Shown here in pieces: positions 13,847-63,145 of a DNA stretch of 64,000 nt (the first letter of the stretch is position 1; each line of letters begins with the position of its first letter). This DNA is from Berberis thunbergii (taxonomy: Eukaryota > Streptophyta > Magnoliopsida > Ranunculales > Berberidaceae). The notes below the pieces were generated by a model that did no database searches, was not told the origin of the DNA, and was given only the letters and a program-made list of their open reading frames with translations. The translations under genes and the position numbers were made by a program. The stretch covers positions 186,001-250,000 of the forward strand of contig QNQO01000797.1 in assembly GCA_003290165.1 (NCBI GenBank), written 5' to 3'.

Positions 13847-13865
13847 CACTACACCAAAAATGGTC

Positions 13866-14122
13866 ATTAGCAACGGTTTTAAACCGTGGGGGTAACCCAT
13901 TGGCACGGCTTAGAACCGTGGGCTGTGGGGGCGTCGCTAAATCCTCAGTAACGGCTAAAAACCGTGGCAAGTCTTAGCCACGGTTATAAGCCGTTGCAAA
14001 GGTTTTAGCCACGGTTTTAAGCCGTGGCAAGTCCTAGCCACGGTTATAAGCTGTGGCAAGTCATGGCCACGGCTCTGAGCCGTTGCAATAGTTAGCCACG
14101 GTTTTAAGCCGTGGCAAATTTT
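13866..14122. repeat. Left subterminal palindromic repeat array of element A
   Basis: About ten copies of AACGGTTTTAAACCGTGG-like units, many being palindromes (CCACGGTTTTAAGCCGTGG). In autonomous CACTA elements, subterminal arrays bind the TNPA-type protein; that role is inferred here. Confidence 0.85.
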
Positions 14123-14311
14123 TTTTTTTTTGTTATCAAATGACTTTTTATTACATCTTATAAGTTTTATTTCTAGAAAATAAAATTTTAAATATGCAAA
14201 ACTTTGTTTCATGTTGTGCACATTTTGTCATTTGTCAGTTGACCAGATTATACAATTACATCAAATGGTCAAAGAATATGCAATACATTTATTCTCATGG
14301 ACTTGTCCGAA

Positions 14312-14803
14312 GAGAAAGCTTGAAAGCACCCATGCAGTTGAATGCAATAGCAAGAGCATGATAGCACACCGCAGTTTGAATATGCTCCACACCTAAAAGG
14401 CGTTCATTCTTTTTTAATGCTTCTTGCAAGTAACGAAGTGCAATATTCATCTTTCCAATATCCTGATACATCATTGCAACATTAATGAATGCTGCAGCTA
14501 CATCAGGGTGATCAGGCCCACAAGACTGTCCTAACAGAAGCATTGTTCGAGACATGACGTAAAGCGAGCTGCGGTTGATTGAGGCCATGGTAAAAAAGGG
14601 CCATATTAACATAGCTGCATGACATTAACGCAGTTCAATTGAGTAATTATATCCATGATAAATTTCTCAAAAACAATCCAAACAAGTTCATACCTGTGTG
14701 CAGTATCAGGATGGTCCAAACCAAGGCACCTTTCATTAATGATGAGCTCCTTATGTTGATGTGTTATAGCTCCAGCCATGTCACCCGCATGATCGCAAGG
14801 TAC
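14312..14803 (-). pseudogene. FMT: Captured fragment of FRIENDLY/CLU (clustered mitochondria) TPR protein
   Basis: Two minus-strand exons. Exon 14694-14803, between AG and GT, codes for HAGDMAGAITHQHKELIINE and RCLGLDHPDTAH. Exon 14614 to about 14312 begins after AG and codes for NMALFYHGLNQPQLALRH, GPDHPDVAAAFINVAMMYQD and ALKKNERLLG...HIQTAVCYHALAIAFNCMGA. These are the TPR region of the plant CLU homologue FRIENDLY, a cytosolic protein needed for mitochondrial distribution. The order and intron position fit a genomic, not cDNA, capture. Similarity breaks after AFKLS near 14315. N-terminal two thirds are absent, so it cannot act as CLU. Confidence 0.85.
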
Positions 14804-15261
14804 CTGAAAATTGCAAATTTTGTATGTCAAAATGAATAACACAACCTTTTATTTGGAAGCTATTGTCAGTAAACTCGTTCAAGTTATAACTTAGAAGTGT
14901 CATAAAACCTTATCAGAAAAAATACATGACTATTTAAGAACTAATATACATTCTTCTTTAAGTTGTTATAAGTCACTATTAAATAAACACAAAACATGGA
15001 TGTCCGCATAATTATGCAATCAATAAATAGATAAATTTCAAACCATGACCTCCTGAGCATTATACATGTAATTCAGTGCTAGGAAAATGCTATCATCTTG
15101 CAAAATTGTCAGGTTCCACAAACTTCAAGCTTGCTTGGCCTTTTCTCAACTGGTATCCAATCCAAAACTTAGAATGGGTCTGTCTTACAAGAGTAGTTTC
15201 CTTGGGAATATTAACATGAAATAAAGACTCTAAGACACAGTGACAAAGATAATCATCTTAC

Positions 15262-15615
15262 CTGTTGCTGGAGTGAAAGGGTGACATCTAGGCAAACTGC
15301 CTGGATTGCTTGCGCATGAGGTGGTTGTGAGCTATATATTTATTCTGCAAGACGAACAGCTCCAGCAAGAAGCTTTGATCTAGAAGAAAAATCAAGGAGT
15401 GGATGTACTCCGGTAAGATCCAAGAAGAGCCTTTGGAAATTCCCATGTTGGGCAGTACAAGTAACTGACGCAAATAAATTAGTAAGAAAAGCAAATTTGT
15501 CCCCTGGGCCACAATACTTGATGCCACTAAGGCATTCATCTTCCCTTTGAGCTCTAACCAAAATTTCTCCAATAGCTGCAGTTGCCACAACCCCTTTAGC
15601 ATACAACAAAAGTTT
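15262..15615 (-). pseudogene. Captured exon of unidentified plant gene in element A
   Basis: A single minus-strand exon of about 354 bp, with AG before 15615 and GT after 15262. It encodes VVATAAIGEILVRAQREDE, GIKYCGPGDKFAFLTNLFAS, TCTAQHGNFQRLFLDLTGVH, LLDFSSRSKLLAGAVRLAE and, after one stop, SSQPPHAQAIQAVCLDVTLS. The regular composition and clean splice borders show a captured exon of a real gene. I do not recognise the family. One internal TAA (AVRLAE*IYSSQ) would stop translation. Confidence 0.6.
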
Positions 15616-15861
15616 CTAAAGTAGTAAAGTGAGAAGAAAAGTTGTAAAGATCATAAGAAAATGGAGTACATGTTATTCTATGCAGAGTTTGTGATGACTA
15701 GGTGTTGCTTTGGGTGTTTTCAAGCATAAGGGAAGAGGAAGACATTGTGTCTTCATGCCATGATTTGGGGTACTTGGCTAGAAATAAACAATCAAATAAT
15801 CAGGTTTTGGTAACTACAAGTTGTGCAGAACATAGTAAAAATGAAGAACCATTGAGCTTAC

Positions 15862-16163
15862 CTGCCGCTCTGTATCTGTAAGGGTAAGACCATCAAAAGG
15901 ACATCTAAGAGCTTGATCCAGAAGTTGGGCGACGTAAGTTGAAGACACAGAGTCCAGGTTTGTGTCTGCTACATATGCTTTGAGAAAAATGCTTCAAATG
16001 ATCTCTGAATGGAGATAGACTCCTCGGCCTTAGCCAATGCCTCTTCACGGTGACCAGTGTCATACAAAATCCATCCTTCGTAGACAAGCCTTTCATGCTC
16101 ATACCTAGAGTGATTTCGAGCCAATCGCAAACTGCGCATCAGCAAGTTCCTTCTTTATAGCAC
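15862..16163 (-). pseudogene. Captured exon of ETO1-like TPR protein
   Basis: The minus-strand exon, preceded by AG at 16164 and followed by GT, contains SLRLARNHSRYEHERLVYEG, WILYDTGHREEALAKAEESI and SIQRSFEAFFSKAY, then VAQLLDQALRCPFDGL. These match the C-terminal TPR part of ETHYLENE OVERPRODUCER 1 (ETO1/EOL), the BTB-TPR adaptor that targets type-2 ACC synthases to a CUL3 ligase. The last residues (LTLTDTERQ) depart from the family. BTB domain and the remaining TPRs are absent. Confidence 0.75.
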
Positions 16164-17116
16164 CTGGAAGACATATAGTCAAATACAAGAAATAGAGCTT
16201 TACATTCTTACGATTTCTAATTACTAATTAACTTGTACAAGCAACCTCATTGGCCAAACTAATTGAAGATATGGTGCTCAGTTAGTAAATAATCTAGTTT
16301 GGTCTAAGGCCATTTACAGTTTGAATGTGCTTCCCAAGACATGAAAGCATAGCTATGCAGGGATAGATGTAGGATAAAAAACTGTATTTGCTTCAATCAT
16401 AATAAAAGTTTTGATAAACCAGGTGTTTTAAACTGCAATTTGTGCAGGTGTTTTAAAACTGAAGCCAAATAAGAACAAGATAAGTATCATAAATAGTGCT
16501 TGAATTCAAATTATGAGGAAGTCACACAGTCAATACTCATAAACCATACTGTTACACTATTGGCTTGCTGATTTAATAGCCCCTACTGAATTACGAGCTT
16601 CATTTGTACTAAGTCTTGTAACATAGAGCAATGACTTCGAAGCCCATGTCATAACTCCATTACAATGCATCCCAACCACTGTCAGAGACTCAGGGTTGCC
16701 AAGTGGCCTTATGAAGTGTGGATGTGTGTAGTTAAACCATGTGTTTATGCACTGACATGTGTAACAACCTTTAATCAGAAAACAAAATTTTACAAAGATA
16801 TCGTTCACAAAATAGTAGAATAATGTGTACTACAAGTATGTATAGGGAAAACTTTAATGAAAATTGTTACAGGAGAAACATGTATTACCCTTTTCCTATT
16901 ACTTCGTTAACCAATAAATCAAAATAAGAAATGTGCATACAGATGCAACAAGTGACAATATGATAGTATCCATCGACTTTTTTCTCTTTATCGACGAAAG
17001 AACTTGGTTTATCTGCATTAAAATCAGAATAGGGTATCCACCCGTTAACACTGAAGATCAGTTTATCGAAAAACAAACTTCTACATTACATTTTAGAGTG
17101 GTTATGATTTTCTTAC
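16164..17116. other. Unassigned interior of element A
   Basis: AT-rich, intron-like sequence between captured exons. Minus-strand open frames at 16557-16808 and 16885-17076 have no recognisable domain. Confidence 0.35.
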
Positions 17117-17230
17117 CGTTGGAAGACGACTACTAACGTTGCTTAGCTTTGAGCCAATGCCTCCAAATGTTGAGCGCTGAAGGACAAGTGAACCAAGGGC
17201 TGCTTGTGCTTGGTTTATAACGTTATCCAT
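17117..17230 (-). pseudogene. Captured exon of Golgi SNARE GOS1 (GOS11/12-like)
   Basis: A 114-bp minus-strand exon with AG upstream of 17230 and GT after 17117 encodes 38 residues: MDNVINQAQAALGSLVLQRS followed by TFGGIGSKLSNVSSRLPT. This is the juxtamembrane SNARE-motif end of Golgi SNAP receptor complex member 1, a Qb-SNARE of ER-Golgi/intra-Golgi transport. The transmembrane anchor exon is not seen nearby. The frame is intact within the exon. Confidence 0.75.
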
Positions 17231-17791
17231 CTGCACACCACAGCACAACAACTTATAGTGAACCAAGAGATAATCAACTGGATGTTATTGCAGTTGGTCA
17301 AACAAATCAAACCAACCAGATTGCAATGGAAATAGTTTCAAATCATTACTCAAGTTAATATAGTGACATTTTTCTTCCAAGGATTTAACAGATGCATGAG
17401 AAAAATTAGTTGCTTTCATGCTTTGTGATTTTTTTCATTTTTACTCTATATCATCAAAACAATAAGTATTGTATTAATATAAGAAAGAAAGCACCCAGAA
17501 CACCAAGAAAGCAACAGAGTAAGTTCACTTACTAGAATTGGAGTTGCATATTTACAGGAATGGCTGAAAGGGTCTTTGTTGGTATGAGTGCCATTATTTG
17601 GTTCTTGACCATTCTCTGTTAGTGGCAAGATCATTGCCCGATCATGGTGATGCTGCACTGGTAATTTGGCTAGTCACGATCACTACTGTTCTTGCATATG
17701 AAAAATATAAATGAGGAGAGATCAGATAACTTTATGAAGGATCTGAATTTCAAACTCTGAATAATCAGGCAAAAGATAGTTTTTGTACTAA

Positions 17792-17937
17792 CGTCTTTTC
17801 TTTCCCTTCCAAGGCTTCTTTTTTCGCTTGACAGTCAGAGCATAAGAATGGGCCATTCCAAGGACGCGCTTTTCTTGGATTTGATGAACCAGCATGCACC
17901 GATGTTCCCTTGTTCGGTTTTATTTCTACTTGACAAA
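17792..17937 (-). pseudogene. Captured zinc-ribbon exon, PP2C12-like
   Basis: The minus-strand exon begins after AG at 17938 and encodes CQVEIKPNKGTSVHAGSS followed by RPWNGPFLCSDCQAKKEALE. The CxxC...CxxC pairs and the ISVHAGS/GPFLCxxC phrasing resemble the C-terminal zinc ribbon found after the catalytic domain of a small group of plant PP2C phosphatases (PP2C12 type). No phosphatase catalytic motif is present, so this is only the tail. Family assignment is from memory and moderately sure. Confidence 0.5.
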
Positions 17938-19236
17938 CTGCACACATGAACAATTTGAACATGTTGCATAAGTGATACTCTGTATTTAACCTGTGATTCA
18001 CATAAATGCATCAGATTCTGATAATTAGATTATCCACAAACAAATGCATATATCAGTTTTGAAGAAGAAAACTTTAATAGAAAGTGTGATGAAGCTTGCA
18101 AACAATCAATATTCAAGGAAACAACAAAATTTGGTGAAGCCAGTTTAAACATAGCAAGTAGAATGCACTAACTGATCTGTTAGCAAGTAATAAACTCCAC
18201 AAGCTATGCATCCTTAAAATGAAGAAAAAGTTAGATATTAGATAAATTATGCACTTCTCCATGTAACCATGCTCAATCCTTCACCCAAGCATGCTTATTC
18301 ACATAACTAAATTGAGGAACTACATTATAAAACTAACAAAAATGAAGAGTTCAAATCAGCTTTAAACTAACAAAAATGAGTTTCATACATACATGTGAAA
18401 CAAATATCAATTTAAAACATAATTAAACATAATGAGTTTCTGATTTTGAAATTGTTTTCTCGACTGCTCTATTACGCTTTCTAGGGGTACTTGGCTGAAA
18501 TTTTTGGGAAAAAAAATATAACATAAGCCACTACAGCCATAAATAAATTCTTTAGGTCATCTAAAAACACCATAGAAGATAGCACCAACACAAAATCCAG
18601 TTACAACCCCAACTACTGTTGCTACTACGTCCTGGACGAAATAACATGCAAGCAATTGACTAAATTGTGCTATTTACGCATAAAGAATCAAAATCAGAAT
18701 CAGTATAATCAATATTCAAAGTGACTCAGAATCAGTATAATCAATAACCGAAATGAGCAACAGAAATAGAACTATAATAACTAATTCACCAATATTCACA
18801 AAAGTTTACAATTCAAACTACAAGGTTTCATAATAGTCACTCCATGATTCTCATGGTATTTTATGAAAAATGTGAACTAGACTTTAAAATTATTGCTTGC
18901 ATTTGAATTGCAGAACAATAATGAGAACCAACAATAAATTTATAGCATTGATTTCAGTTATATATTTAGCACCCAAACTCCATTTTGAACTTCTTTAGCA
19001 GGTATGTTCCACAATCAGGGTTGATGGTCACCCTCAGACTTGAATAAGATAAACAAAAGAAAATGGTCATACATGAAATTCTTGCACATGCTCGTTTCTT
19101 CAAAGCCAAAGATAAGGAGATAAGTAGTAAACAATGAAAGGAAATAAAATCAACGCCTTAGCTTTAACAAGGTAAAAACTTGCACAAGAAAATTGAAACT
19201 CAGCTAAGTTATGAAGAATCTCTGCTTTTGTCTTAC
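17938..19236. other. Unassigned interior of element A
   Basis: AT-rich, stop-filled sequence without recognised exons. Probably captured intron sequence or decayed filler. Confidence 0.35.
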
Positions 19237-19498
19237 CGCCCTCTATCTCATATGAATCCAACTCACCAAGCTTTCCACTAGTTTCAGCTTCTCTTGATAA
19301 TCTACATCAAGCAAGCATCAGATAATGACAATGTACAGACAAATCCATGCTAAAAGTACCACTAAGGAAAAATACCTCCGGAGATAAAACAGTTGCCATT
19401 GTTGGTATGAACGCTACAACTGACTGGAACTTGTTAAAAACAATCCTCAAAGCATCATACTCAACGTTCTTCAAGACATCATCTGCCAGAATAGAAAC
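19237..19498 (-). pseudogene. Captured fragment of mitochondrial ATP synthase gamma subunit
   Basis: Two adjacent minus-strand exons with intact GT-AG borders. 19376-19498 encodes VSILADDVLKNVEYDALRIV then FNKFQSVVAFIPTMATVLSP. 19237-19301 encodes REAETSGKLGELDSYEIEGG. They are consecutive in the plant mitochondrial F1 gamma subunit (rotor shaft of ATP synthase), and the intervening 74-bp intron is retained. Capture was therefore from genomic DNA. Only the middle of the protein is present. Confidence 0.85.
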
Positions 19499-20172
19499 CT
19501 AAAAGTGAAAGAACATGTTATGAATCATAATCATGACATAGAGAGAGCAGTGTCTGTTGATACATAATCATTGCCATTAATAGAGATATTACTTTTTCTT
19601 GATAAAATATAAGAAATTAAAGAGAGCAGGGGAACCTATGTTTCTAAATGGATGCTTGTCTGATAGAATCCATCTAGATATAAATGGGTCAGATGCTATC
19701 CAACAACACTGTCAATGGATTCAAAAGTAAATCAGATCATATCCCCGATACAATAATTTATATAGCACACATTAGGGACGACCACAACATGTATAGGTTC
19801 AGTGACGACAATATTAAGTTCTTAAATTTAAAGAGGCAATCAAGACTTTTCTGAAAAACACAAAATTCTACAACGTATCATTCTAAGATTGTGTTGCTTC
19901 TATTCATCCATGGACTCCACAAATTAGCACAAGAGAAGTGTATAAAAGATTCCCAACTCTAAGCCTTGAACTTCCACAATCTAAGAACACCCCCATATCT
20001 CAAACAAAGATTAAATAGGCCCTGAGCATAAACAGCATAAACATTCAAATTAAATAGGCCCTGACACTTATATAATTTCAAAACCTCAAGACATAGACAT
20101 AACAATAGTCTAGTGACTTAGCCATAACAATAGTCTCAATATAAGTACAATAGGCCAAACCAATTTTGTTCA

Positions 20173-21984
<1,812 letters not shown>

Positions 21985-22257
21985 CTTTCCATGATTCTTC
22001 CTAAGATCTAAAAACTCACAGATATTTGCATGCCATGGCTCCAAATACACAGCAAATTCACCTAAACATATCATAAACAAAACAAGAGCTAATAAGGCAA
22101 ACATTGCAAACAAACTGAATTTTACTACATATCAAAAGCAAAAAAAGCACCACATTACCTTTCATCTTGCCTCCCCCTTGATCAACATAACGAGCAGTGT
22201 CATTGAAGACACGTAGCATTGGTACAATACCATTAGATGTTCCATTGGAACCACGAA
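21985..22257 (-). pseudogene. Captured fragment of ribonucleotide reductase large subunit (RNR1)
   Basis: Two minus-strand exons. 22159-22257 encodes [20 protein letters not shown] then DQGGGKMKG. 21985-22061 encodes [20 protein letters not shown] then KNHGK. They are consecutive in RNR1, the catalytic R1 subunit that reduces ribonucleotides; the intron between them is retained with GT-AG borders. Key radical-chain cysteines lie elsewhere in the protein, and this fragment has none of the rest. The exon is near the right end of the element, thus near the start of the presumed chimeric transcript. Confidence 0.88.
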
Positions 22258-22876
22258 TTTTTTTATTTTTTTTATTTTTTAAATGAGCAGGGATTTGGAG
22301 AACCTTGTTTGAAGTCATTCACAATTTCCCCATTTATTAGTGAAAATGGACCAAACATTCATCATAAACTTAAATGTAACAGAACAATTGAGATTGCAAA
22401 TGGGTATTACCTCTGGTCGAGATCGAGTTCAAAACTCAGCACGAGGTTGAACCACAGCTCGAGGTCGATGTCGCAAGTCAGCACGATGTTAGAGTTTTCG
22501 ATCGATTTCTCTGATTTCTGATTTCTCTGCAATCAACAACAAAACAAAATCAGTGATTTCGATTCTCCCCTCGAGTTTTTGAGCCAAAAACATATATGCG
22601 ATTTTCTTACAAAGCCATTTCTCACTGCAAGGTCGAGGTCGATGGCTAGAGATTTCTCTGATTTCTGATTTCACCGCAATCAACACAAAAACGGATATGT
22701 GATTTCAATTCTCCCCTCGAGCTTTTTCAGCCAAAATGATTTTCTTACAAAACCCTAAACCTCTTAAATGAAAATGGAAATGAGCCAAAATGGAGGCGGG
22801 AGCGCCAAATTTTTTGCAAGACCTCGAAATTTCTTTCGCCCGCGTGAAATCCACTCGAGTTCTTCAACGGTTTTGA
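22258..22876 (-). promoter_or_regulatory. Presumed 5' leader region of element A's chimeric transcript
   Basis: The region between the right subterminal repeats and the first captured exons contains duplicated CGAGGTCGATG...GATTTCTCTGATTTCTGATTTC blocks (22440-22540 and 22625-22690). By position and by analogy with the corresponding end of element C it could be the promoter and non-coding first exon. No defined core promoter was established. Confidence 0.3.
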
Positions 22877-23075
22877 TTTTTTTAGCAACGGTTTTAGAAC
22901 GTTGGAAAATATAGCTACGGTAAAAAACCGTGGCTATATGGGCCAACGGTCTAAAACCGTGGCTACAATGGCTAACAGTCTAAAACCGTGGGCCTCTTCC
23001 ATGGTTTTTATTTTTTAGCCACGGTTTTTAGCCGTGGAAAATAAACCAACGGCTTAGAGCCATGGCCACCTCCCC
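22877..23075. repeat. Right subterminal palindromic repeat array of element A
   Basis: Seven or more AACGGTTTTA.AACCGTGGCTA units in both orientations directly inside the right terminal repeat. Confidence 0.85.
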
Positions 23076-23103
23076 GTAGCTAAACAAGCCTTTTGGTGTA
23101 GTG

Positions 23104-24960
23104 ATTTTTCCTTGCTCTATCACTACCAAACTGGACAATATGGCCTGTAACTTTTGGTGGAATGAAACATTGGATAACAAGGCTAGACATATGTGTACCT
23201 GGGACCGTATTACATTACCTCGCCATTTGGGAGGTCTCAATATTCCTTCTTCTAAGAATAAAAATCTTTCCTTAATGGAATAAAACTTGTGGAAAGAGAT
23301 TTCCTCACCCCACAATCCTTGTATCCTCCAATTCAAAGATCTCTACTTCAATAAAAAAAACATTTTTCAACTTTCAAAGCCTCTACAACTGTTTCATTTG
23401 CTTGGAAAGGCAATCTGACTACCTTCTTAAAAATGAAACGACATTTCATCTTGCAAGTTTTTTCGAGGGTTCACATTAATTTTGGAAAGATTGTTGGGTA
23501 AGCCAGGTCTGGTCCTTGCTGACTGTCTGTTTCTACTTCTTACACTGACAAGCCCCCAAAGCATTCCTAACCTCTGGCCAAGGAATTCAATGGAACACAG
23601 ACCTGCTCATGTCCATTCTTTCCAGCCCTGTGGCTAGGGACATCTTGGACATTGCTATCAGACCGTTAGTGTACCCGGACAATCTCATTTGGTTGCCCAA
23701 TAAAAAAATGTTTCTTCTCTGTTAAAAGTGTTGCTAGAGCTTTCGCAAATAATCTACTTCAAACCTCCACTTCCAGTACACTTAATCTTTACCTTTTCAG
23801 CTAAACTTCTTAGGGAGTTGTGGAAAAATTAAAGTCCCCCCTCATGCTCTCTTTCTTATATGGAAGATCAGCCAAAACATTCTTCCGACCATGACCAATC
23901 TAGTCAGGCATCATGTGCCTATCGACAACTGTTGCATATTTTGCTAACAAAACATGGAGGATGTGACTCACATTTTCTTCCTCTGCCCTATCACCAATAA
24001 ACTTTGTCTCCTCTCCCTCTTGCCTATTGATTGACTCAAGGCCAACTTTAACACAATTTCTATTTTTGGGTTCTTTGCTTTCATGTGGGACACAACCAAG
24101 GCCCATCCCGTGGATAAAAGTCAAATGCAATATCAATTTACGACCGTTCTCTTAACTATCTAGCAGATTTGCAACAAAACTGTTTTCAACAAGACCAAAA
24201 TTTGCACAATCATTCCTCTCATCTTTCCATCAAACCTAGACATCCTAGCACAAATACTGGTTCACCACTAGTAATATCCCACCTACCCAAACTGTCACCA
24301 ACTCAAGGGAACTCTCTATTAGTATCCTCTCGGTTCCCCAAATTCTTGAAACAACTAAAACATACAATCAGGTTGCCTCTCTCACCTCAACATCTCACCA
24401 CGAGACCTGGTTGGGCCTTTTTTTTAGACTGTGACCTACCGAATTGCAATGACCCAAGCCCAAATTCAATCAGCAGGACACCACAGATGCATCTTTAGAT
24501 CTAATTAACCTAGGCCAATTCCCTCTGTTTGGACCCGAACATGATGTTTGTCAATTTTGATGCATGTTTCTTTGACTTTTCTAAACATGGAGCTTAAGGT
24601 GTGTTTACGATCGATTTGCATGGACAATTTCTAGCTATAGTAGGTTACTCAGTAGTAGGTAAGGTTTTTATAGTAACATGGTGGAGTGCTATGCGATAGA
24701 AGCAACCCTTCTACTTATTCGGGCACAACAGTGGAAGATAGGTTTCCTTTTTGGCAATTCGGTGAAGCTCATCGATCTTGTCCATGATAATGACTATCCA
24801 CCTACTTTTGCTATGGACTGGATTTGGCGTCCGATTATTAGTAATATTAGACGCCTGTTCTTTTTGCTTCCCTCATGGAACTGTAAGTATGTATGTAGAG
24901 ACCTCAATGTGGAGGTTCATAACTAGGCTACAGTCACAGGGCAACAAGTTTGTAATCGTA
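23104..24960 (+). pseudogene. L1-type LINE, 3' piece: RT C-terminus and RNase H
   Basis: After the ATT duplication the L1 frame resumes with FPCSITTKLDNMACNFWWNE (23110-23166) and the conserved WDRITLPRHLGGLNIPSS (about 23200-23254). Decayed sequence follows, then an RNase H-like domain at 24540-24930: VNFDACFFDFSKHG, VVECYAIEATLLLIRAQQW (about 24680-24736) and CRDLNVEVHN (about 24895-24924). RNase H at the C-terminus is a feature of some plant L1 elements. Several stops. The end lies just before the LTR element at 24973. Confidence 0.78.
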
Positions 24961-46139: not shown

Positions 46140-46159
46140 CACTACACCAAAAAACCCCC

Positions 46160-51568: not shown

Positions 51569-51689
51569 GGAATGGCAAATAGAAAACAGTTTTCAGGTTA
51601 GCAATTGTTGATATTTGAACTGATTGAATCTGAAAAGAATAACCAAGATGACATACAGCTTCCGTAACATCCTTGCCAGAAGGACTCAG

Positions 51690-52952
51690 ACGAGATGCAG
51701 TCCGAGCAGCGTCATGAGTAGAGAGTTGTCTCTTCCTTGAAACCTAACCAAGATCTCCCAACAATCGCCTCGATGGACTAACTCATGTTCCATCTTCCTG
51801 GAAGCCAGGCTTATGACATTGACGAGATCCGTAACACGCCTGTCCAAACTCGCTTCCCAATCCATGTCGGCACCACTAACGCTAGTACGAGTAGCACGAG
51901 CAGCGATATCCTCAACACATGATTCAGTAAGCAAGGTCCGTTATGCTTCATTCATAGTGTACAAACCACTACAATCCAAGATGTCCTCAGAGAGAAATGC
52001 ATCCACAGGGAACTAGAGAAGCTTCAAGAATTGGTCATTGATCCTCCGTTCCTCTGTAGTCAACTGTAGATCCTTCCTTTAGTTGGGAACTCAAAAAGAT
52101 CACAAAATCATACAATCTCACAATTGGAAGTTGCCAGAGTTAACAGAAGCATAAAACCAGGACATCGACCAATCGTTGATGTCATCGTTAAGCTTTGGGA
52201 AGTAGGTGAGGGAACGGAGGAAGTAGATATCCTTATCACCAATAGACCAACCACCGGATGCAGAACCCTCACAGTCAAACGAATGCCAAATAGAATAGCC
52301 CTCGCATAAAAAGAAACCGTGACTCTCCAACCATTAGGACCCATTTGGGCAGGAGGAATCCCCAAAAAATCCAAATACTCCCAAAACAGCTCTAAAACTG
52401 GGAGTCGAAGGCTAGAACAAAACATCAAAACATGCACGGATACAGTGCAACATACTCGGACCTTGGATGACAAGGACTGTCATTTTGTCTAGGCAAAATA
52501 ATCTCAAAGTCGGGTGGCAAATTATAGTCAGAACTAACGTTGTCCAATATTGTTGGGAGAAAAATAAGTCTCACAAGTAGCTAGCGGCTTACCGTTTAAT
52601 TTATCACCAACAGACATCGTTAAAGAACGGAGAAACAAAAAGAACAAAGGAGACGAAAGAAGAAAAGAACCCTAATTTCAAAGATAACGTAAAGAGGGGA
52701 AACAAATCCATCATGCACCCTTTTATAGAGCCAAACAATGAAGGGACTACTCATCGGACAGCTTGAGAGATATGATAGCTACGTGAAATTCTAGAAATGT
52801 GCGTAAAAGCAAATGGGTGAATAGAAAATCGAGACACTAACCCACAAAAAGTTGCCGACAATATTAAATACAAAGCAATGATGGAATTTAAAGACCGACT
52901 GTCACGAAGTTAGTGGCCACGTCAGCATACCCACTAACTAAGGGGGAGTAGC
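51690..52952 (-). pseudogene. R4: inverted related retroelement, antisense ORF and polypurine end
   Basis: This gypsy copy is oriented opposite to R1-R3 (sense on plus). Its antisense ORF reads on the minus strand from an ATG at 52617 (MSVGDKLNGKPLATC). It includes VLELFWEYLDFLGIPPAQMG and WRVTVSFYARAILFGIRLTV, the PF04195-like pattern, then a coiled-coil-like part (51690-51940). The polypurine tract AGGGGGAGTAGC is at 52941-52952, just before the LTR. The 5' side is missing: the homology stops near 51690 against element B. It is diverged from R1 and is a sister family. Confidence 0.7.
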
Positions 52953-53179: not shown

Positions 53180-53214
53180 CACTACACCAAAAGGCCAGTT
53201 TAGCTATGCCGAGC

Positions 53215-53545
53215 TGGCCACGGTTCTAAACCGTTGGTTTATTTGCCACGGCTTAAAAACGTAGCTATAAGTACCAACGGCTTAAAACCATGGGTAAAAA
53301 AAACCTGGCCACGGCTTAAAACCGTTGGTATATTAGGCACGGCTAAAAATCGTGGCTATTAGTAGCAACGGCTTAAAACCGTGGGTATTATTCGCAACGA
53401 CTAAAAATCGTTGCAACAAAAAAATTTAGCAACGGTTCTAAACCGTGGCTAGGTCTAGCCGCGGCTCAAAACCGTTGCAAAAAAAATTTAGCAACGGTTC
53501 TAAGCCGTGGCTAGCTCTAGCAAAGGCTCAAAACCGTGGCTACAT
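53215..53545. repeat. Left subterminal palindromic repeat array of element C
   Basis: About a dozen AACGGCTTAAAACCGTGGCTA-type units in both orientations, ending with CCGTGGCTACATG. Confidence 0.85.
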
Positions 53546-53900
53546 GAAAAGCTGAAAAAAAAAATTGGGCGGGCTATTTTGATGCTCGACCTTCCCTTCA
53601 CTCGACTTCCATCGACAAAAACCTTCCCTCCCCTCCACAAACCTGCTCCTTCCCTGCTCCCTCCCTCGACTCTACTCCACTCGACTCTACTCCAATCGAT
53701 TTCCCTGCTCCTTCTCCTTCCCTGCTCCCTCCCTCGACTTCCCTCCTCCCCTCCTTCCATGCTCCCTCGACTTCCCTGCTCCTCCCTTGACTTCCCTCCT
53801 CCCCTCCTTCCCTGGTCTTCCCTCCTTAGTACTCGTCGTCTTCAAAAATAATCAGCCACTGCAACCATTCTCTCGTACAGGTACTCTCTCTCTCTCTCTC
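53546..53900 (+). promoter_or_regulatory. Presumed promoter and non-coding first exon of element C's chimeric gene
   Basis: Strongly C/T-rich leader (TCCCTGCTCCTTCC repeats, 53590-53830), then CTCGTACAG|GTACTCTCTCTC at about 53880, which resembles a donor site followed by a (CT)n tract (53885-53902). By position, just inside the subterminal array and upstream of all captured exons, it fits a transcribed 5' leader. Inferred. Confidence 0.4.
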
Positions 53901-56258
53901 TTTTATTTTTGATGAAATTAGGGTTCCTGAATGTAGAGAGGAAACAATGGATTTAGTAGAAACAATGGGTTTGTTGTGATGTCTGTAGATCTCTTCTTGC
54001 AATCTATTGTTTCCCCGTGGAAACAATGGATTTAGTAGAATGACTATATAAACGATTTAGGGATTCAATAATGAACCACTAGTAGCAAAAAAAAAAATCT
54101 GACTTTCTATTACCATTGATGTAAAGGGGGTAGATTATCATCTTTGAAGATAGAAATTGAATTTGTTCAAGATTAGCTAATATAGATAATGTTCATTTAG
54201 TTTTAAGATGTACCCAACTTTTTTATTTGCTAAAAAGATTTTGGTTTTGTTTGATTTATCATCTATAGTTGTCTTTTCTAAATCTTCTTGTGATTAATTG
54301 TGTTTTAAGCATACACCAGTTTCTCTTTGGTCACCTTTGGTTGAAAGATGCATGCTTATCTATTTATGACAAAGTTTGATAATATTAGTCATTCGAAACT
54401 GGAATGCAAACTTTTAGTCATTCGAAACTGGGTTGCAATTGATTGCATTTTTTTTGTAAAATCCTATTTCCTACCTGATGAAATTGTAGTTGATTGTAAT
54501 TTCTCGGCTTTAGCTTCATAGTTAATGAATTTGGTCATGGCATGTGTTTATCAGGCCTGGTATTGACTAAGGCTTGGATGCTTTTAAGGCTAGTATTGAC
54601 TAGGCGCAGTTTAAAGAAATGTGGAGGTTCAAGTTTAAAGAAATCAGGCCTCTGTTGAAGACCAAGGAAGATGGAAGGTGAGGTTTGGGTATTGGTCTTA
54701 ATTTAATTTGTTGGTGGTTAGTTGATGCAAAAGGAGTTTAGTTTGAGATGATTATGAATAGTCTGATGAAAAAAATTTATCTCATTAGATTGATAAGAAA
54801 GAGGGTTTTGGTCTTAATTCAATGAGATGATTTTGAATTTGCATGAATGTGGTTGTTGATTGGTGTGTTTGAAAAGATTTATCTGTGCTCATTACTGATA
54901 AGGAAATCATGCAATTTCAAGTTTAAACTCGAGAAATGAATTTGACATGGAAGAAGCCCTTAGTTTTTCTTTCTTTAGGGTTTTGATTAATTATTGCAAA
55001 GAAGTTCTATTTCAGATGATTTGGAATTTGCATGAAAATGGGGTTGTTGTTTTTCGTCAGTAGTGTGCTTGAAAAGATATATGTGTACTCATAGATTGAT
55101 GAGGAGTGTTTTGGACTTAATTTGATTTGTTTGTGGTTAATTGATGCAAAAGGAGTTCAATTTGATATGACTTTGAAGTTGCATGAAAAGGGGGAGAGGG
55201 TATTCTCTTCAATTAACTGTATTTCTATTTGAGACATCTCATGGCCTGATTTAATTCTTAGCATCCTTTGTTCTTCGATAAGGCATTATATCTATTTGGG
55301 GAACTTTTTTTTTGGCTTATTTATCTCAATGAATGTGAATTCATGTTGTTTCCACTGATCAAAAACATGTTTTTGATGTGTCAGATGCTTGTTACTCATG
55401 ATATGGATTTTTATTACTTTTTATTTTTTTTAAGTTGCTATTTCATCCTGCTTTCTATCTGCGTTTGTCTATCAACTGATTGTAATGAAATACTGTAAAG
55501 TATTGTTTTTCCAAATATTTTATTTATTTTAAAGTTTTTGCACATTCTCTTATTTTTTATGGTCTTATTTGAAACTCCCCCCCCCCCCCCCTTCCATAGG
55601 TCAAAGAGAAAAAAAGGTGCTTCAAGTGCAGAGAATATAGAATTTGTTGCTGCAGGTATGCCATCATGAAATTCATCTAAATTGTGACATTTGAAGTCCA
55701 TGTAAATTCTGGTTGTAGCAGGGTATTATGTTCTTGGTTGGGCCATCTGGCCATGTACCATGTGTAATCTGCAAATGACACACATTTTATCAATCTGTAC
55801 CAATCAACTTGCACTGTTAATGTGGACTTAGATATGTATTTTAGATAGAATATTCAGGGTCTGTGTAATAGAAATTTGTTTAAGGATCTTCAGTTGTAGT
55901 TCGCATTTTGGTTAAGGATAATTTGGAATTGGTTGACATTGTTTCTGGAATTTGTTATTCTTGTTGATGTTTGGTTAAATGCAGGTTGGGTATACACCCG
56001 ATTACCTATTTCTACTACAAACAATCCTCAGATCAGATCCCCAGGTATTTTACAATGTCTGATGCATGTAAATTTAGCTGTTAAGCCATCTTAAATAAAC
56101 ATGATCAACATTCTAGGATACAGTCTGTTTAAATTATTCATGGTGTGTTGGGACAATCATCAAATCTTAGTTCATTTTCAAATTTCATGGACTTGTGCTT
56201 CTATGTTCTTTCAGTCAACCTAAGTCAACATTAAACACATGATTTTCCTTCTATGCAG
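53901..56258. other. Interior of element C, largely unassigned
   Basis: T-rich intron-like sequence. A small plus-strand exon-like piece at about 55602-55653 (SKRKKGASSAENIEFVAA) lies between acceptor- and donor-like sites and is not identified. A poly-C run is at 55578-55591. Confidence 0.35.
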
Positions 56259-57030
56259 GTCCTGGAGATCAATCTAGTGACATTTCCAAATGTAGTTGAT
56301 GCCATATTGGCCAATGGTGTAAGATGTTTATTCTTTGTTTGTGTGCCTCCCTGCGGCATTACACTGAGTTATCGGATATTAAACGTGTCATTGTGAGTAC
56401 TCATGCAATTGAGCCCCAGGTTTGTAAAGTTTAATACTCATACTTTGGCTTGAGAGTGCATGTAATGTTATTCTAAAATATGGGTGTTGTCCAGTCACTT
56501 GTAGAGTTCTATGGAACCCTTTCCAGGGAGTGGGCATTGGAATGTATGAAGGACCTTTTGCTGGTTAATTTGAGAGGAAATCTTCAGATCATCGTGCAGG
56601 TACTTGTCGCTTACCTGCTTTCTTTATATACTAGGTTTAGTTTTATCTTTTTAACTCTAATGAAAAATGTTTTTTTGCAGGCTGCCAAAGAGTACTCTGA
56701 GCAGTTGGGTGTTGAGTCATGTATAAAACTCTTTGAGCAATTCAAATCCTATGAAGGTTTATATTTTATCTTAGGGTCGTATTTGAGCTCCAGGTATTTT
56801 TTTTAGTAACTACTGCCCTCCCCTTTTCCAGTACACTCACTTCTTTTTCTTGATTCTCACCAGTCATTTTCCTGGTACAGTGAGGATCCCGACATTCATT
56901 TTAAGTATATTGAAGTTGCGGCGAAAACTGGACAAATAAAAGAGGTCGAGCGTGTCACAAGAGAGTCAAGTTTTTATGACGCGGAAACAATGATTTCTAC
57001 TTTGCTCACTCGCTGGCATGATTGTGAGTA
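56259..57030 (+). pseudogene. Captured multi-exon fragment of clathrin heavy chain
   Basis: Five plus-strand exon pieces in the order of clathrin heavy chain: [20 protein letters not shown] (56259-56316), [20 protein letters not shown] (about 56357-56418), [20 protein letters not shown] then [14 protein letters not shown] (about 56495-56599), [20 protein letters not shown] then [12 protein letters not shown] (about 56681-56775), and [20 protein letters not shown] then [15 protein letters not shown] (about 56887-56995). Clathrin heavy chain forms the triskelion coat of endocytic and TGN vesicles. Introns are retained; one piece (56330-56356) is frame-broken. Only a part of the leg repeats is present. 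Confidence 0.9.
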
Positions 57031-58093
57031 TTTTCTGGATGCTGCTTCCCATTTTCAGTGCTCTACAATTCCTGTGAATCAGTGCTTGCATATTCCTTGA
57101 ATCCACTAGGGTGATTGCCTTAGTGGGAGTACAATTTGGTTTGATATGCTTACAACTTACCTGTTCAATTTATGGTGCATACTAGTGTAGTCCTACCCAC
57201 GAGAGGTTTGTAATTTTTGTATGCATTTCTGTTGTTGAAGAAAGTTTGAATTGAAGCCACGAAAATCATAGTTATGTCAAGAATGGCTGTAAAGTGAGAA
57301 TGTTCTTTGCATTCCTGAATTTGGGTTCTCAACCTTGATAAAAAAAACAAATAATGAGCACTACCCAGTCAATTGACTCTGATGTAGATTAGTATAGTAA
57401 CAAAGTGAAATTTGGCATGGAACTAGATCTACATTTGTTATCTTGCTGAAGTTATAATAACTGTTAATGATTCATATCTGTTCAAATATTTTACGCGCTT
57501 CTGTAATATTTAGTGAGGAATCATTGTCTAGCAAAAAGATCATGGCTCTGATTTTAAAATTCTTTTTTTTTTGTTCAAACTTTATTCACTCAATTACATC
57601 TCGACACCAATCTTGGCGGAGTTTTAAGTCACTGCCTTAGTTTCATTTCGGCATAAGTAGCAAGAATTTTTTCCCCAGTTTTGTGCGGGGTATTGGTATG
57701 CCAGTAATGCTGCTCCATCTGATAGGAATCTCCTCATAAAAACTTGGTTTTGTTATTCAATAGCATGGGAGGCAATCAGCTAACATGACTGATTTTAATC
57801 AGAATTGTATAGACTATAGTACAAATTCGGACAGTTTTCTCCTATGTTGGGGAATCAAGAGCTTTGCAAACTTATTCATCTGCATTGAGAGTAGCTTAAA
57901 AGCTTGGTTACAAGATTGGATTGGCCAAAGGGGTTGGGTTGGGGTCGACGTACTTCACTGTTTTCTGCTGCTACGCACTTCTACTTTGGTATGGAGGTCA
58001 TCTAGTGATAGGTGGACTGTAAGCACCCAAACACATCTCTTATTTGTATTGAATTAATTGGTTCCAAATTTTAAAACCATGCTATTTCCACAG
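57031..58093. other. Unassigned interior of element C
   Basis: AT-rich sequence; the 90-codon frame at 57785-58057 has no recognisable domain. Confidence 0.35.
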
Positions 58094-58255
58094 GGCTTTA
58101 GGACAATCAGCACCGAGCGTGGCTGCTTTCGCTAAGGCAAAAGTTGCAGCTGCCAAGATCATCTGTATTATTGATCACAAGCCAATTATTGACCAAAATC
58201 CACCAGTTTCTCGACAGATTTTACATGTCAAGAATCGGGATTCGTATGCTGATTG
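58094..58255 (+). pseudogene. Captured exon of ABCB (P-glycoprotein) transporter
   Basis: The plus-strand exon after CCACAG encodes ALGQSAPSVAAFAKAKVAAA then KIICIIDHKPIIDQN, the conserved end of the first membrane domain and start of the linker to NBD1 in ABCB1-type auxin exporters. The tail (PPVSRQILHVKNRDSYAD) does not match and may be another captured bit. Followed by a GTAACT donor at 58256. Confidence 0.82.
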
Positions 58256-58375
58256 GTAACTTCCTTTTCCATCTAATTTTATTGGTTTTGTTTGCCCAAT
58301 GTTAAAAGTTAGTTTTTTTATTTGTTAGAAATATCATATTCATTTGCTGAACCTTTAAGTTTTTTTCAAACTCAG

Positions 58376-58602
58376 GGCAGCGCATGGCATTGCATGATCC
58401 AAATCCTGAACCGGATTGCGTCGGCTATATACATACTAAAATGTTTCTTGTGGCTGTAGCACGTCATGCTAGTGAGGATGCCCGTTTTGTTTGTTTACGG
58501 GAGTATGGGAGCGCACCCAATATCGACATCTATGGTGATCAAAATTACGGGGATCACCAATCTGACATCAATATCCTTGTGGGGAATGACGGGGATCACT
58601 GA
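58376..58602 (+). pseudogene. Captured exon of pyruvate dehydrogenase kinase
   Basis: The plus-strand exon after CTCAG encodes GQRMALHDPNPEPDCVGYIH, then TKMFLVAVARHASEDARFVC and LREYGSAPNIDIYGD. This matches the central region of plant mitochondrial pyruvate dehydrogenase kinase, which phosphorylates E1-alpha, just upstream of its GHKL ATP-binding fold. After YGD (about 58535) the sequence becomes an unrelated repeat (ACGGGGATCAC twice) and ends in TGA at 58600. ATP-binding motifs are missing. Confidence 0.88.
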
Positions 58603-59447
58603 CAAAGGGGTTGTTCATCTGGTAAGTTAAATATAACTGCTTACTGAGAAAATTATTAAATTTGATTGTTCCATAATATGTTGTTATTGATCAAATCTTT
58701 TTTCCTGTCAGATATATTAGTGCACGATTCAGTACAAGAGTGTCTTTCTAAAAAGAAATGCAAACAAACCTTAACTGTTGCAAGTTGGTTATTTCCAGCT
58801 TTTCATAGTTCGTTGTAGCATTTGTTACAGAGCTTTACAATTTCAGAACTAAAACAATGATAATCAAAATTACGCGCTCATTCAGACTAACCCCCTGCAC
58901 CCACCAAAAACAAGTACAAACATGGAAGGAATTTTGGTGGTAAAACTTTAAAGTACAAAATTACATGTCTTCACCAAGTGATGTGTTAAATCCCAATGGA
59001 AAGAAAAATACACTGGTATTGGATCCTCTTCGAATTAAGTTTATTTTATTCATATGTATGATGTTACATCCTTTCTCTCTGTTCTTGTTGCAGTATGTGC
59101 AGGCATCATCTTTTAACTTGTTGCATGCAACATACATCTTTATTAGACTGCCTATTAATCAATGTTAATAATTATTTGTTCTCTATGATTTATTATCCAT
59201 AGGCATATATGAAGCAGAAGTACCGGTTTTTATATGTTTAAAGTTTCTTTCTATTTTCCCCTTGTGTTTGTCTCCCTGTTTCTAGGTTTGGAGGTTTAAG
59301 TTAAATATTTCACAATTTGACTTACCACAGTATTCTTTTTTGTAAACATTAGCATTCTAGATCAATCAAATGAAGAAGAACATGATTGTTTGTGCAACTT
59401 GGGAGTAGAATCAACAAAAAGGAGGGAAGAAGAAAGGTCAAGCAAGT
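58603..59447. other. Unassigned interior of element C
   Basis: AT-rich, no exon recognised. Confidence 0.35.
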
Positions 59448-60634
59448 ATGGGTAATTGTTGTTTCTTCAAATCAGCTCAAGTGAACCATAGAAGCTCAAC
59501 AACTTTAACTTCCTCAACTCCAGGTACTCGAACAATATTTTTTTTTGCAATAATTGATCTTTTCTTTTAATGGAGTCTCTTAAGTTTCAGTTTTTTGTTG
59601 ATGGGTTTTCCTTATTTTGCTTAGATTCTGTGTTTTTGTGTTAATATCTATATGAGGCAATGGGGTTTTGGTATATCTTCTTTCTTGTGAAAAATGTATG
59701 AAATGATTTTCTTGCTACTTCAGCATCCCCCTGTATGCAATTGTGTTAAGAAAAGTAACAAAATTAGACAATTGTATTGGAGGGACACCCATCTTTGAGT
59801 GCATTCATCAATTCAATAACTCCACACAAATTTCAACTTATCAATACTTGCATGAACCAACTGTTGCTTATCATGCCTCATCTTCAGAATTTATTTCACC
59901 AGACCTCATTACAACAAGTAAAAACAGCAAATTTCATTGTCCTTCAGAAGATTATGTCTTTCCTTCCATCCCAGTGGAAGATTCATCTAATTTCACATTG
60001 GTTGACTTACAGGATATTAGCATGAATTTATTGAATAGTTTGCAACAAGCTGAGGTTGTAGATGGTGAGTGGAATATCTCTTATTGCAGTTCCCGATATC
60101 ATTGCTATTATAACTCATGATAAAAGTACCATGCAAGTTCAATTGAAGTGTTGTTGTTGTGCTTCAGATCATCATGCGAAATTGCCTCCACTACCTCGCA
60201 ATTCTGAGAATGATACAAATGTAAGCATTGTACTTCATGTTCTGGATTTGTAGTTTGTTCCATCAGCAATGCTGAATGAGGCAAACTTTTTCCTGTCTCA
60301 CTACTTCTGCAAGCTGACCACAGTAATCAGTGATAAGATCCCATTCTTTTGTAAACCAAGAAATTTATTTTATTTCTTTTTTGGGCAGGCTGAGGTTTCT
60401 GAAAGAGAGAGAATATTGCTTCTCAAGGTTGCAGAACTACAGGCCAGGTAGGTAATTACTGGTGCAGATCAAGTAGCTTAGTTGAAATTTTTTTAATCTT
60501 TAGGATATATGAACTACTGATGACAAAAGACAAAATCTTATTTGAAGAAATCTCCTTTTTTACGTTCCATGTATTTTGTGCAGGATGGTTGGTTTAAACC
60601 AAGAGCTTACACTGGAAAAGTTGAAACATAATGA
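59448..60634 (+). pseudogene. Unidentified captured exons in element C
   Basis: Three groups of plus-strand exon-like pieces. 59448-59523: MGNCCFFKSAQVNHRSSTTL, whose MGNCC start suggests an N-myristoylated, palmitoylated protein. About 59727-60064: open frame with VTKLDNCIGGTPIFECI and FTLVDLQDISMNLLNSLQQA. 60168-60634: DHHAKLPPLPRNSENDTN, AEVSERERILLLKVAELQAR and MVGLNQELTLEKLKHNE, separated by GT-AG-like introns, with coiled-coil character. The families are not recognised; they may derive from one or more genes. Confidence 0.45.
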
Positions 60635-61078
60635 GGTATTTAAACAAGGATAAATCATTTTAATTTGCATCTTCTCTTTCTCTTTTTCGAGTAAATTTGT
60701 TCTAAGCTAAAGCTTCATGGATGAAACTCGAAGCTTGTCTGTTTGAATTAGAAGAGGGCTTATGTCAAATATTGAATGGATGGTGGTAATTTGTGTAACC
60801 CCCCAGCTCACATCCTTCACCTCTCTTTCAAAGGTTTTTTCCCCTTTCTTATTTTTGCCTTTCTTTTATAGGACATGCTGGTCTTATTTTTTCATTTATA
60901 CGGTCAAATAAATAAATCTTTACAAAGCACATAAATAAAACGAATAAAAATGATGGTGTTGTGTGTTCTCTGAGCAACCTATGTGGAACCATGACTGGTG
61001 GAACTTGATTAAAGGTTATAAAGCTAGTGTAGCTAGTGATTCTGATCATTATTATTTTGGTTATGTAGGAGGTAGTAC

Positions 61079-61384
61079 CAAAACGCATATTGCAAATGGA
61101 AGAAGCTATTAGAACTCGCGATTTCCCGTCATTTGCACGGTTAACCTGTGCTGATAGTAATCAATTTCATGCAACTTGCCTGGACACTTCACCCCTAATA
61201 TTCTATATGAATGATACATCCCACATGTCTGTACTGTTTACTTGCTGCCTTCAATTGATAATATCTCTTCGTATTTGTCAGATTTTGTGAATTATTCGAG
61301 ACTTCTAATGTTGGTAAACAACTGCAATTTTCCAGGATAATTAGTGCTATGGAAAAATGGAATCGTTCTGAAGGGACACCACAG
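61079..61384 (+). pseudogene. Captured fragment of diphosphomevalonate decarboxylase (MVD)
   Basis: Two plus-strand pieces. From 61079 to about 61226: [40 protein letters not shown] and [11 protein letters not shown]. 61336-61384, between CCAG and GT: IISAMEKWNRSEGTPQ. They are consecutive in MVD, the GHMP-kinase-fold enzyme that converts mevalonate diphosphate to isopentenyl diphosphate. The first piece runs on without a clear donor. Only the C-terminal middle part is present. Confidence 0.88.
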
Positions 61385-62749
61385 GTATTATTTACTGACA
61401 TATTCAGTATTGACTACTTATGCTATAAGCTGTATATTACCTACCTACTTTGCTTCATTGTTTTGGTGCCTATTTGATATGTTTTCAACTTTTCATACTG
61501 AGAATCAAGATTAAATAGAAAAGTTACTGCTGAACATATTACTTATAAGAGTTTTTTTTTTCCTATTGAAACTCAAATGGAGCACTTTTGTATTATGAAA
61601 AAATGGACTCCATGGTTGCAATATTAGAGTATGATCTGCTTTGCAAACTGTCAATATACATAGTTGAGGTAGACACTTAGGGAACAAAACTTGTTCATAT
61701 GGGTGAATTACGACCTAGTGAATGTGCTGATATTGGCTATTTATATATGAAATAGCTGAGGTACTCAATGTGCTAATTTTTAAAAGTGATGGAATAATCA
61801 TTTATTTGCTTCCTATTTAATGATCAACCATCTATAAATGTAATGCATGGTGGAAGCATGTAGGAATCAGTACAATTATATTGGAATAAACAAAAACCTA
61901 TTAGATTGCTCCATTTCCTATATAATATACCTCCATTTCCTTTCGTAATGGTAATTTTTCTTGTATACTATTATCTTTATGCATTTTTCTCATTAAAGAG
62001 TAATGTTTAATTACTTTAGCAACTTCAAAATACTGATGCTTGGTTTACTTAGGAAGAAAGATATCAATTACTTTAGAATTACACGATCCAAGCAGAGTTC
62101 ATGAGGAAGCATAATTGCTAGGCAAACGTAGCATTAGAGATCAACTTGCTTGCATCCGCTTTAGACCATATAGTTAATACAGAATATAATTAAATTAAAT
62201 TTTAGACAAACAAGTGTAAGAAATTATAACGATTGCTACCACACACAAAATTTATGTTGTTCACCTTACATGCTCTACACTGTTGTTTTATGCAGTCAAG
62301 TACAACAACACATTTCCATTTCATATTTTATAAACCTTGTTGTTCAATCACGTACCTGGATTGTTATTGTTTGCATTGCTTCATATGTTGTCTTACACCC
62401 TCTAATTTTTTGTTGCTAGGACTGGACTTGATGACGAGGTTGCAGATCAAGATTTTCACGTTCCAGGCTTAATCCCAAAACTGCCAGGTCGTTTTGCAGC
62501 AGCAGCATTGTTCCACTTTCTTTGTATTTGAGATATTTAAGTTTGTGTGTGTGTCATTGTATTTGAGATATTATTTGATAAATTTTGTGACTCAATGTAA
62601 TACATTATCTTATTAATTACATTACTTTGCCTCCATTCATGGAAATGTTTAAGTTTGGCACATTAAAATTTTTATTTTCTAGAAATAAAACTTATAAGAT
62701 GTAATAAAAAGTCATTTGACAGCAAAAAAAAAAAATTATTAAAAAAAAA
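61385..62749 (+). other. 3' part of element C; possible last exon
   Basis: Mostly AT-rich. A possible last exon begins after CTAG near 62420 and encodes GLDDEVADQDFHVPGLIPKL then PGRFAAAALFHFL before a stop. The gene is not recognised. It is placed where the 3' end of the element's transcript would be, as with 47107-47238 in element B. Confidence 0.35.
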
Positions 62750-63125
62750 TTTTGCCACGGTTTTAAACCGTGGCTAATTATTGCAACGGCTAAAAACCGT
62801 GGCTACCTTGCCACGTCTTATAATCATGGCTAGTACTGGCCACGGCTTAAAACCGTTGCTAAAGCTATTGCAACGACTTAAAACCGTGGCCAAACTTGCA
62901 ACTGTTTTAAGCCGTGGCTACTCCTGCCCACGACTTAGAACCGTGGCTAAAATTTTGGCAACGGTTTATAACCGTGGCTAAATCATCAACCGTCCTCGAG
63001 ATAAAACCGTTGCTAATATTTTAGCCACGGTTTTTAGCCGTTACTAGGGATTTAGCGATGCCTCTACAGCCCACGGTTCTATGTCGTGCCTATGGGTTAC
63101 CCCCACGGTTTAAAACCGTTGCTAA
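62750..63125. repeat. Right subterminal palindromic repeat array of element C
   Basis: About fifteen CCACGGTTTTAAACCGTGGCTA-type units in both orientations. Confidence 0.85.
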
Positions 63126-63145
63126 TGGCCATTTTTTGTGTAGTG

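Follow-up and report, generated by a model that had tools for sequence, protein, structure and literature searches.

In the portions of the literature considered here, CACTA elements that carry pieces of host genes are described from several plants. The Tpn1 family of Ipomoea nil has 339 copies with a mean length of 7,081 bp and mostly 3-bp, AT-rich TSDs (PMC5105172), and its 28 types share common subterminal regions and contain varied captured gene fragments (PMC8195511). In soybean, the 5.7-kb Tgm-Express1 contains both exons and introns from five host genes, and a single pre-mRNA is spliced with these pieces as its exons (PMC1947982). Maize Pack-CACTA elements contain the most distinct loci; the local-insertion statistics in the same account are those of hAT and PIF elements, and for Pack-CACTA, local insertions are mentioned in Arabidopsis (PMC8903248). 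A total of 140 CACTA gene-capture events are reported for wheat 3B (PMC4290129). The way in which cut-and-paste transposons acquire fragments from several host genes remains under debate, with gap repair set against fusion of neighbouring copies.

The window, by which we mean the whole 64,000-nt stretch of DNA analysed, contains three elements with related ends, A, B and C (Table 1), and 5.5 kb to its left, at contig C797:172956-180458, is a fourth member, D. The TIR CACTACACCAAAA, which starts CACTA, is found at both ends of A and D and at the left ends of B and C, and the right TIR of C is the same sequence with one mismatch. The two copies of the 3-bp TSD are equal in A, in C and in D (AGA), and C lies in the opposite orientation to A and B. 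The initial annotation had proposed three complete or near-complete members; this holds for A and C, which have TIRs and TSDs at both ends, but not for B, for which no second TIR was found in the window (with a search tolerance of up to two mismatches) and no right TIR with at most one mismatch in the 30 kb past it. Because this other end is missing, the coordinate 51690 is an approximate, unmapped break, taken over from the initial annotation. We further note that a LINE-like frame runs open through 97 codons across the joined flanks once A and a single TSD copy are taken out. The intact frame indicates that A is an insertion and no syntenic host segment.

Table 1. Coordinates of elements A, B and C, their flanking and subterminal repeats and their host-gene cargo (positions within the window)
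Feature	Position	Strand	Support or remark
Element A, complete, 9257 bp	13847..23103	+	TIR and TSD; cargo on minus strand
Element B, without right end	46140..51690	+	intact left TIR; cargo on minus strand
Element C, complete, 9966 bp, opposite orientation to A	53180..63145	-	TIR and TSD; cargo on plus strand
TSD of A, left copy ATT	13844..13846	.	equal to right copy
TSD of A, right copy ATT	23104..23106	.	equal to left copy
TSD of C, left copy AAA	53177..53179	.	equal to right copy
TSD of C, right copy AAA	63146..63148	.	equal to left copy
A left subterminal palindromes, 7 copies ACGG(N7)CCGT	13873..14112	.	pattern count
A right subterminal palindromes, 3 exact copies	22917..23035	.	pattern count
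B left subterminal palindromes, 10 copies	46167..46601	.	pattern count
C left subterminal palindromes, 5 copies	53220..53508	.	pattern count
C right subterminal palindromes, 6 copies	62757..63119	.	pattern count
A: TPR_12 protein fragment, two ORFs	14298..14848	-	best 1.4e-18
A: possible second TPR gene piece, weak	15817..16154	-	TPR_2 0.0011, below cut-off
A: V-SNARE fragment	17105..17284	-	4e-9
A: ATP synthase gamma fragment	19193..19498	-	search support for 19376-19498 (6.4e-5; 0.0082)
A: Rab2 GTPase exon	20236..20376	-	6.3e-24
A: ribonucleotide reductase large-subunit exons	21985..22255	-	1.1e-7; 1.8e-12
B: cytosine DNA methylase exon	48266..48370	-	6.3e-6
B: LIM-binding co-regulator exon	48860..49045	-	2.5e-8
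B: XMAP215/CKAP5-type protein, three exons	50530..51013	-	4.4e-11 with exons joined; no Pfam match
C: clathrin heavy chain exons with introns	56259..56986	+	search match
C: ABCB transporter exons	57900..58199	+	ABC_membrane 3.3e-4; second search 4.8e-11
C: mitochondrial dehydrogenase kinase exon piece	58198..58257	+	2.5e-8
C: mevalonate diphosphate decarboxylase exons	61069..61384	+	1e-22

The grouping of these elements is further supported by their subterminal regions. Palindromes of the form ACGG(N4-9)CCGT occur 33 times in the window, and all but two of them lie inside the five ends of A, B and C (counts per end in Table 1); random controls, comprising 30 Markov-1 sequences, contained 0 or 1 each. 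The repeated unit is a 15-bp palindrome of the CCACGGTTTTAAACCGTGG type, often spaced at 29 bp. The ends themselves align, A-left with C-right at 80-82%, A-left with B-left at 71% and A-right with C-left at 84% over 94 bp. Matching TIRs, clustered palindromes and alignable ends thus bear out the common termini and palindromic subterminal repeats proposed at the outset, and the ends are common to four members on one contig.

The interiors carry pieces of host genes in all four members, with 15 firm fragments in total: five in A, three in B, four in C and at least three further ones in D. The initial annotation had counted at least seven fragments in A and four each in B and C, of which the number for C stands and those for A and B fall to the supported five and three. 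A additionally contains the weak TPR piece and unnamed exons; those at 15343-15615 had no Pfam or PDB match. A LIM match at 17768-18010 in A was dropped (0.031, and absent on re-search of the trimmed piece). We take 19193-19300 in A to belong with the ATP synthase gamma fragment, and the LIM-binding co-regulator of B to be SEUSS-like. Neither 47110-47256 in B nor 59707-60600 in C matched Pfam, and 58351-58599 in C, which matched neither Pfam nor PDB, is presumably a second kinase-like exon. Other cargo pieces we presume to correspond to MOR1, CMT, GOS, ETO1, CLU and SHI/SRS. Matches in D to Prominin (0.0016) and raffinose synthase (0.0084) were left out of the count, and Rft-1 (4.1e-4) stays outside the firm count because the ORF tested for it, L029:6773-7000, matched nothing.

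Beyond their end regions, the interiors of A, B and C have no blastn match to one another at E 1e-3, in agreement with the non-overlapping cargo first described. Four different mosaics are found inside 76 kb, a cluster noticed in a window chosen for that cluster. Among 24 exon pieces, AG lies directly upstream of ten and GT directly downstream of nine, and these edges indicate that introns were carried along with the cargo; at several pieces the splice edge is not clean. The cargo is also partly decayed, with frame breaks in ORFs and, in C, a fusion in which the kinase exon piece is joined to the ABCB exon in a different frame.

No transposase family was detected at E 0.01 in the 279 interior ORFs of at least 38 aa in A, B and C (134 + 145), as the initial annotation had it, and none in the 354 such ORFs of A-D (134 + 145 + 34 + 41). 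An autonomous partner with the ends of this family was not found in the contig. One TNP2-bearing element is present there; its TIR and subterminal unit differ from those of the family, and no left end was found for it.

CACTA-start TIRs, 3-bp TSDs and both direct and inverted subterminal repeats place these elements in the CACTA (En/Spm) superfamily, and the lack of an internal transposase, the host coding DNA inside and the repetition of the family with common ends (four members, one contig) are the features of Pack-CACTA. We are therefore highly confident that A-D belong to a single family of CACTA (En/Spm) transposons that are non-autonomous and of the Pack-CACTA type, and from this structure we infer that they captured pieces of host genes. 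The original observation is in this sense partly confirmed: complete elements A and C, their ends, the separate cargo and the missing transposase remain, and the completeness of B and the fragment counts are amended. Its idea that the family specialises in capturing genes agrees with the four members found on this contig, each of which carries gene fragments.

Degraded islands of host genes, or tandem pseudogenes between CACTA-like repeats that no single element ever carried, would also account for the decay seen in places in the cargo, with its frame breaks and out-of-frame fusion. This explanation is very improbable given that three elements have matched TIRs and equal TSDs, that A closes cleanly in the LINE-like frame and that neighbouring fragments stem from unrelated genes. 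Indeed, where examined, neither intact neighbouring genes nor a syntenic segment appeared: side by side within TIR/TSD bounds lie incomplete genes with unrelated functions, A is an insertion and the interiors do not overlap, so that the initial interpretation is supported. Helitrons lack TIRs and TSDs, and a Helitron reading is already refuted by the paired TIRs and TSDs of A, C and D; that Helitrons or another gene-capturing class produced these segments, with CACTA-like ends by coincidence, has next to no chance, since the CACTA-start TIRs, 3-bp TSDs and subterminal repeats fit CACTA, even though Helitrons, in the part of the account consulted, likewise gather several gene pieces stepwise (PMC3288121).

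For the Pack-CACTA family, we envisage that a CACTA transposase encoded elsewhere would recognise the TIRs and subterminal repeats and could move anything between two compatible ends. Host pieces may enter as DNA, when the gap left by an excision is repaired or when two neighbouring copies move together, and would accumulate into a different mosaic in each copy. The close packing of the four members suggests local transposition.

The most interesting feature of these elements is one-way cargo in a tight cluster. All identified host fragments run from the A-right/C-left end to the A-left/C-right end. We read this direction as a sign that capture or selection favours cargo able to serve as spliced exons in a putative transcript entering at the A-right/C-left end. 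Sense ORFs yielded 16 Pfam families among 145 in A-C and five among 41 in D; antisense ORFs yielded one weak retroelement match among 134 in A-C and none among 34 in D. With both strands of A-D scanned alike, 13 host domain kinds appear, all of them in the same direction, a comparison drawn from the Pfam scan, which is the only fair one between strands because PDB searches covered sense ORFs only. Tentatively, this CACTA family could collect host fragments one-way, from the end at which transcription enters towards the opposite one, such that copies become multi-gene arrays of spliceable exons and local copies a nursery of chimeric exon sets, the direction being imposed either by how capture works or by selection acting on transcripts of the elements; we consider this possible, if somewhat doubtful. 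We give about an even chance to the uniform direction having arisen by accident, or through a small number of captures, each bringing in several pieces at once, with no directional mechanism. There are only four elements, fragments inside one element may not be independent, and four orientations agree by chance one time in eight when counted per element. Against this stand the derivation of the pieces from unrelated genes, the like-for-like contrast between strands and the observation that in Tgm-Express1, too, five fragments are joined by splicing within one pre-mRNA (PMC1947982).

A local cluster with different cargo, kept introns and uniform direction makes the capture question testable: donor junctions, capture order and transcript direction could be read in one genome. 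It also carries a warning for annotation, where such an array of real exons may pass for a gene.

No report of one-way cargo in CACTA elements was recognised in the parts of the literature covered, and the string CACTACACCAAAA does not occur in the literature searched. Like Tpn1 in the portion of its description consulted, A-D are non-autonomous CACTA elements with conserved termini, subterminal repeats and captured host genic interiors, but the subterminal repeats of Tpn1 are 122-bp and 104-bp tandem repeats (PMC5105172), whereas those of A-C are 15-bp palindromes. Chenopodium CACTA elements also carry host gene pieces, there upstream of transposase domains (PMC8978399), whereas no transposase was found in A-D. 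As in the Pack-CACTA elements of maize and Arabidopsis, coding DNA of several loci lies between CACTA ends (PMC8903248); the parts examined of that account and of the wheat account do not report the one-way cargo seen in A-D. Like Tgm-Express1, the present elements hold host exons together with introns (PMC1947982), but Tgm-Express1 is one element and A-D are four different mosaics within 76 kb. A-D are thus Pack-CACTA elements, of a kind already known from morning-glory Tpn1, soybean Tgm-Express1, maize and wheat, and a rich new example of it.

Four elements were recovered by a paired-end scan of the first 290 kb of the 516-kb contig (QNQO01000797.1, here C797), which required CACTA-like ends 1-25 kb apart, equal 3-bp target-site duplications (TSDs) and at most two mismatches between the terminal inverted repeats (TIRs). 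These are A and C within the window, D, a member of the same family to its left, and E, an element of another CACTA family to its right. Element B has a left end only, its other terminus being absent from the window and from the next 30 kb. Thus, of the three complete or near-complete members proposed in the initial annotation, A and C are complete and B is not. Element bounds, ends, cargo (the host gene fragments inside) on both strands, flanks and the literature were analysed along with this part of the contig, in which the window spans C797:186001-250000. Its genes are of plant-like appearance.

Features of the window and contig (bare coordinates, window; C797-prefixed, contig)
Feature	Position	Strand	Details
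Element A	13847-23103		identical 13-bp TIRs; TSD ATT both sides
Element B, left end	46140
Element C	53180-63145		TIRs with one mismatch; TSD AAA both sides
Element D	C797:172956-180458		7503 bp; TSD AGA; 5.5 kb left of window
Element E	C797:251733-260043		complete, 8.3 kb; TIR CACTACAAAAAAA; TSD ACA
TNP2 ORF	C797:21341-23545		735 aa; Transposase_21 (4.7e-99) and Transpos_assoc
Likely CACTA element with TNP2 ORF	C797:21341-31844		DUF4216 beyond the 735-aa ORF
Palindromic repeat	5011-5486		~480 bp; self-complementary at 74%
Retroelement regions, diverged direct copies	24973-27488, 33738-34382, 43693-46031		~76-82%
Retroelement regions, diverged direct copies	31024-33854, 40923-43811		~76-82%
Tandem-like repeats	29106-29767		~72% alike
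MatE transporter match	37109-37651	minus
gag domain	42438-43055	minus

Joining the flanks of A through a single ATT leaves one frame open for 97 codons across the joint, with no stop or shift; A is therefore an inserted element. Judged by eye, this is a LINE-like reverse-transcriptase frame, and the surroundings of C are LTR-like. To the right of B, ~52.26-52.44 kb resembles at the protein level a retroelement copy at 26.1-26.3 kb (40% over 62 residues, opposite direction).

The kinship of A, B, C and D is evident from their ends. The palindrome ACGG(N4-9)CCGT, often spaced at 29 bp in A, has 33 copies in the window, 31 of them within the five ends of A, B and C, versus 0 or 1 per sequence in 30 Markov-1 random sequences. 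Alignments group A-left, B-left and C-right as one end type and A-right and C-left as another, which upholds the shared termini and palindromic subterminal repeats first noticed in A, B and C and indicates, since C-right matches A-left and C-left matches A-right, that C is inverted. In alignments of 128 bp, D-left matches A-left at 91% identity, C-right at 93% and B-left at 86%. We further note that A-D are all packed into 76 kb (C797:172956-249145), with no further exact TIR of their type in the other 214 kb of the 290 kb examined. This clustering, in a window chosen for its richness, fits local hopping, which one account reports for Pack-TYPE elements (PMC8903248).

Fifteen firm host gene fragments are found over A-D. 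Those in A are from ribonucleotide reductase large chain, Rab2, ATP synthase gamma (PDB match 6.4e-5; Pfam 0.0082, below cut-off), a V-SNARE and a TPR protein; those in B from an XMAP215/CKAP5-type protein (without Pfam match), a LIM-binding co-regulator and a cytosine DNA methylase; those in C from clathrin heavy chain (Pfam matches below cut-off), an ABCB transporter, a mitochondrial dehydrogenase kinase and mevalonate diphosphate decarboxylase; and those in D from ribosomal protein L24, a DUF702 factor and plasma-membrane H+-ATPase, with Rft-1 (4.1e-4) as a weaker candidate. At least seven, four and four fragments had been claimed for A, B and C; the four in C stand, while the firm counts are five in A and three in B. 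The interiors of A-D outside the end regions share no similarity at E 1e-3, in keeping with the non-overlapping cargo sets described earlier for A, B and C; A and C have ~90 bp in common immediately inward of the subterminal repeats. AG lies directly upstream of 10 of the 24 exon pieces checked and GT directly downstream of 9; other pieces miss these dinucleotides by one or two bases, having been trimmed to codon boundaries, and some lack a clean edge. These splice edges show that introns were carried along, which implies that capture occurred at the DNA level. In C, the ABCB exon continues straight into the kinase exon in a different frame.

The cargo is also biased in direction. With a single minimum ORF length of 38 aa applied to either strand of A, B and C, and Pfam at E 0.01, the sense strand (that of the cargo; the minus strand for A and B, the plus strand for C) yielded 16 Pfam families in 145 ORFs, representing 11 kinds of host protein, and the opposite strand one weak retroelement match in 134 ORFs. 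In D, scanned with its outermost parts left out, five families were found in 41 sense ORFs, two of them counted (L24 and DUF702), and none in 34 antisense ORFs. The total of 13 kinds of host protein sense versus none antisense has a chance of about 2 in 10,000 if independent, and of 1 in 8 counted by element. PDB searches covered sense ORFs only and were thus excluded from this test. The bias is worth testing.

No transposase match was found among the 354 ORFs scanned in A-D, as had been stated for A, B and C. The TNP2 ORF elsewhere on the contig belongs to a likely CACTA element. The likely right end (TIR) of this element is CACTACAAGAAAA, accompanied by a TAGCGACGGTT-type unit, and its left end was not found; it is a cousin, at most a candidate partner. 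CACTACAAGAAAA occurs 6904 times in the 2.24-Gb assembly (11,732 contigs) versus 197 for the reversed pattern, so CACTA-type ends are abundant in the genome. The contig scan that revealed the TNP2 ORF took in 52 ORFs out of the 54 that measure at least 160 aa and lie whole within one analysed piece (the two omitted are in D); four of the 52 match MatE, and one matches a caulimovirus-like coat domain (4.1e-4) and is perhaps an endogenous pararetrovirus.

The A-D family shows the tested features of Pack-CACTA elements, which carry host coding DNA and lack transposase. In Tgm-Express1, one pre-mRNA is described as splicing five fragments with GT-AG introns, which agrees with the one-way cargo of A-D; a single chimeric ORF read in minus frames is noted as well in the discussion of that paper (PMC1947982). 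The nearest family-level case in the literature consulted is Tpn1 of morning glory (PMC5105172). Pack-CACTA elements are already known, and A-D are a new member of this kind, notable for a cluster of unusual quality and for a bias in cargo direction.
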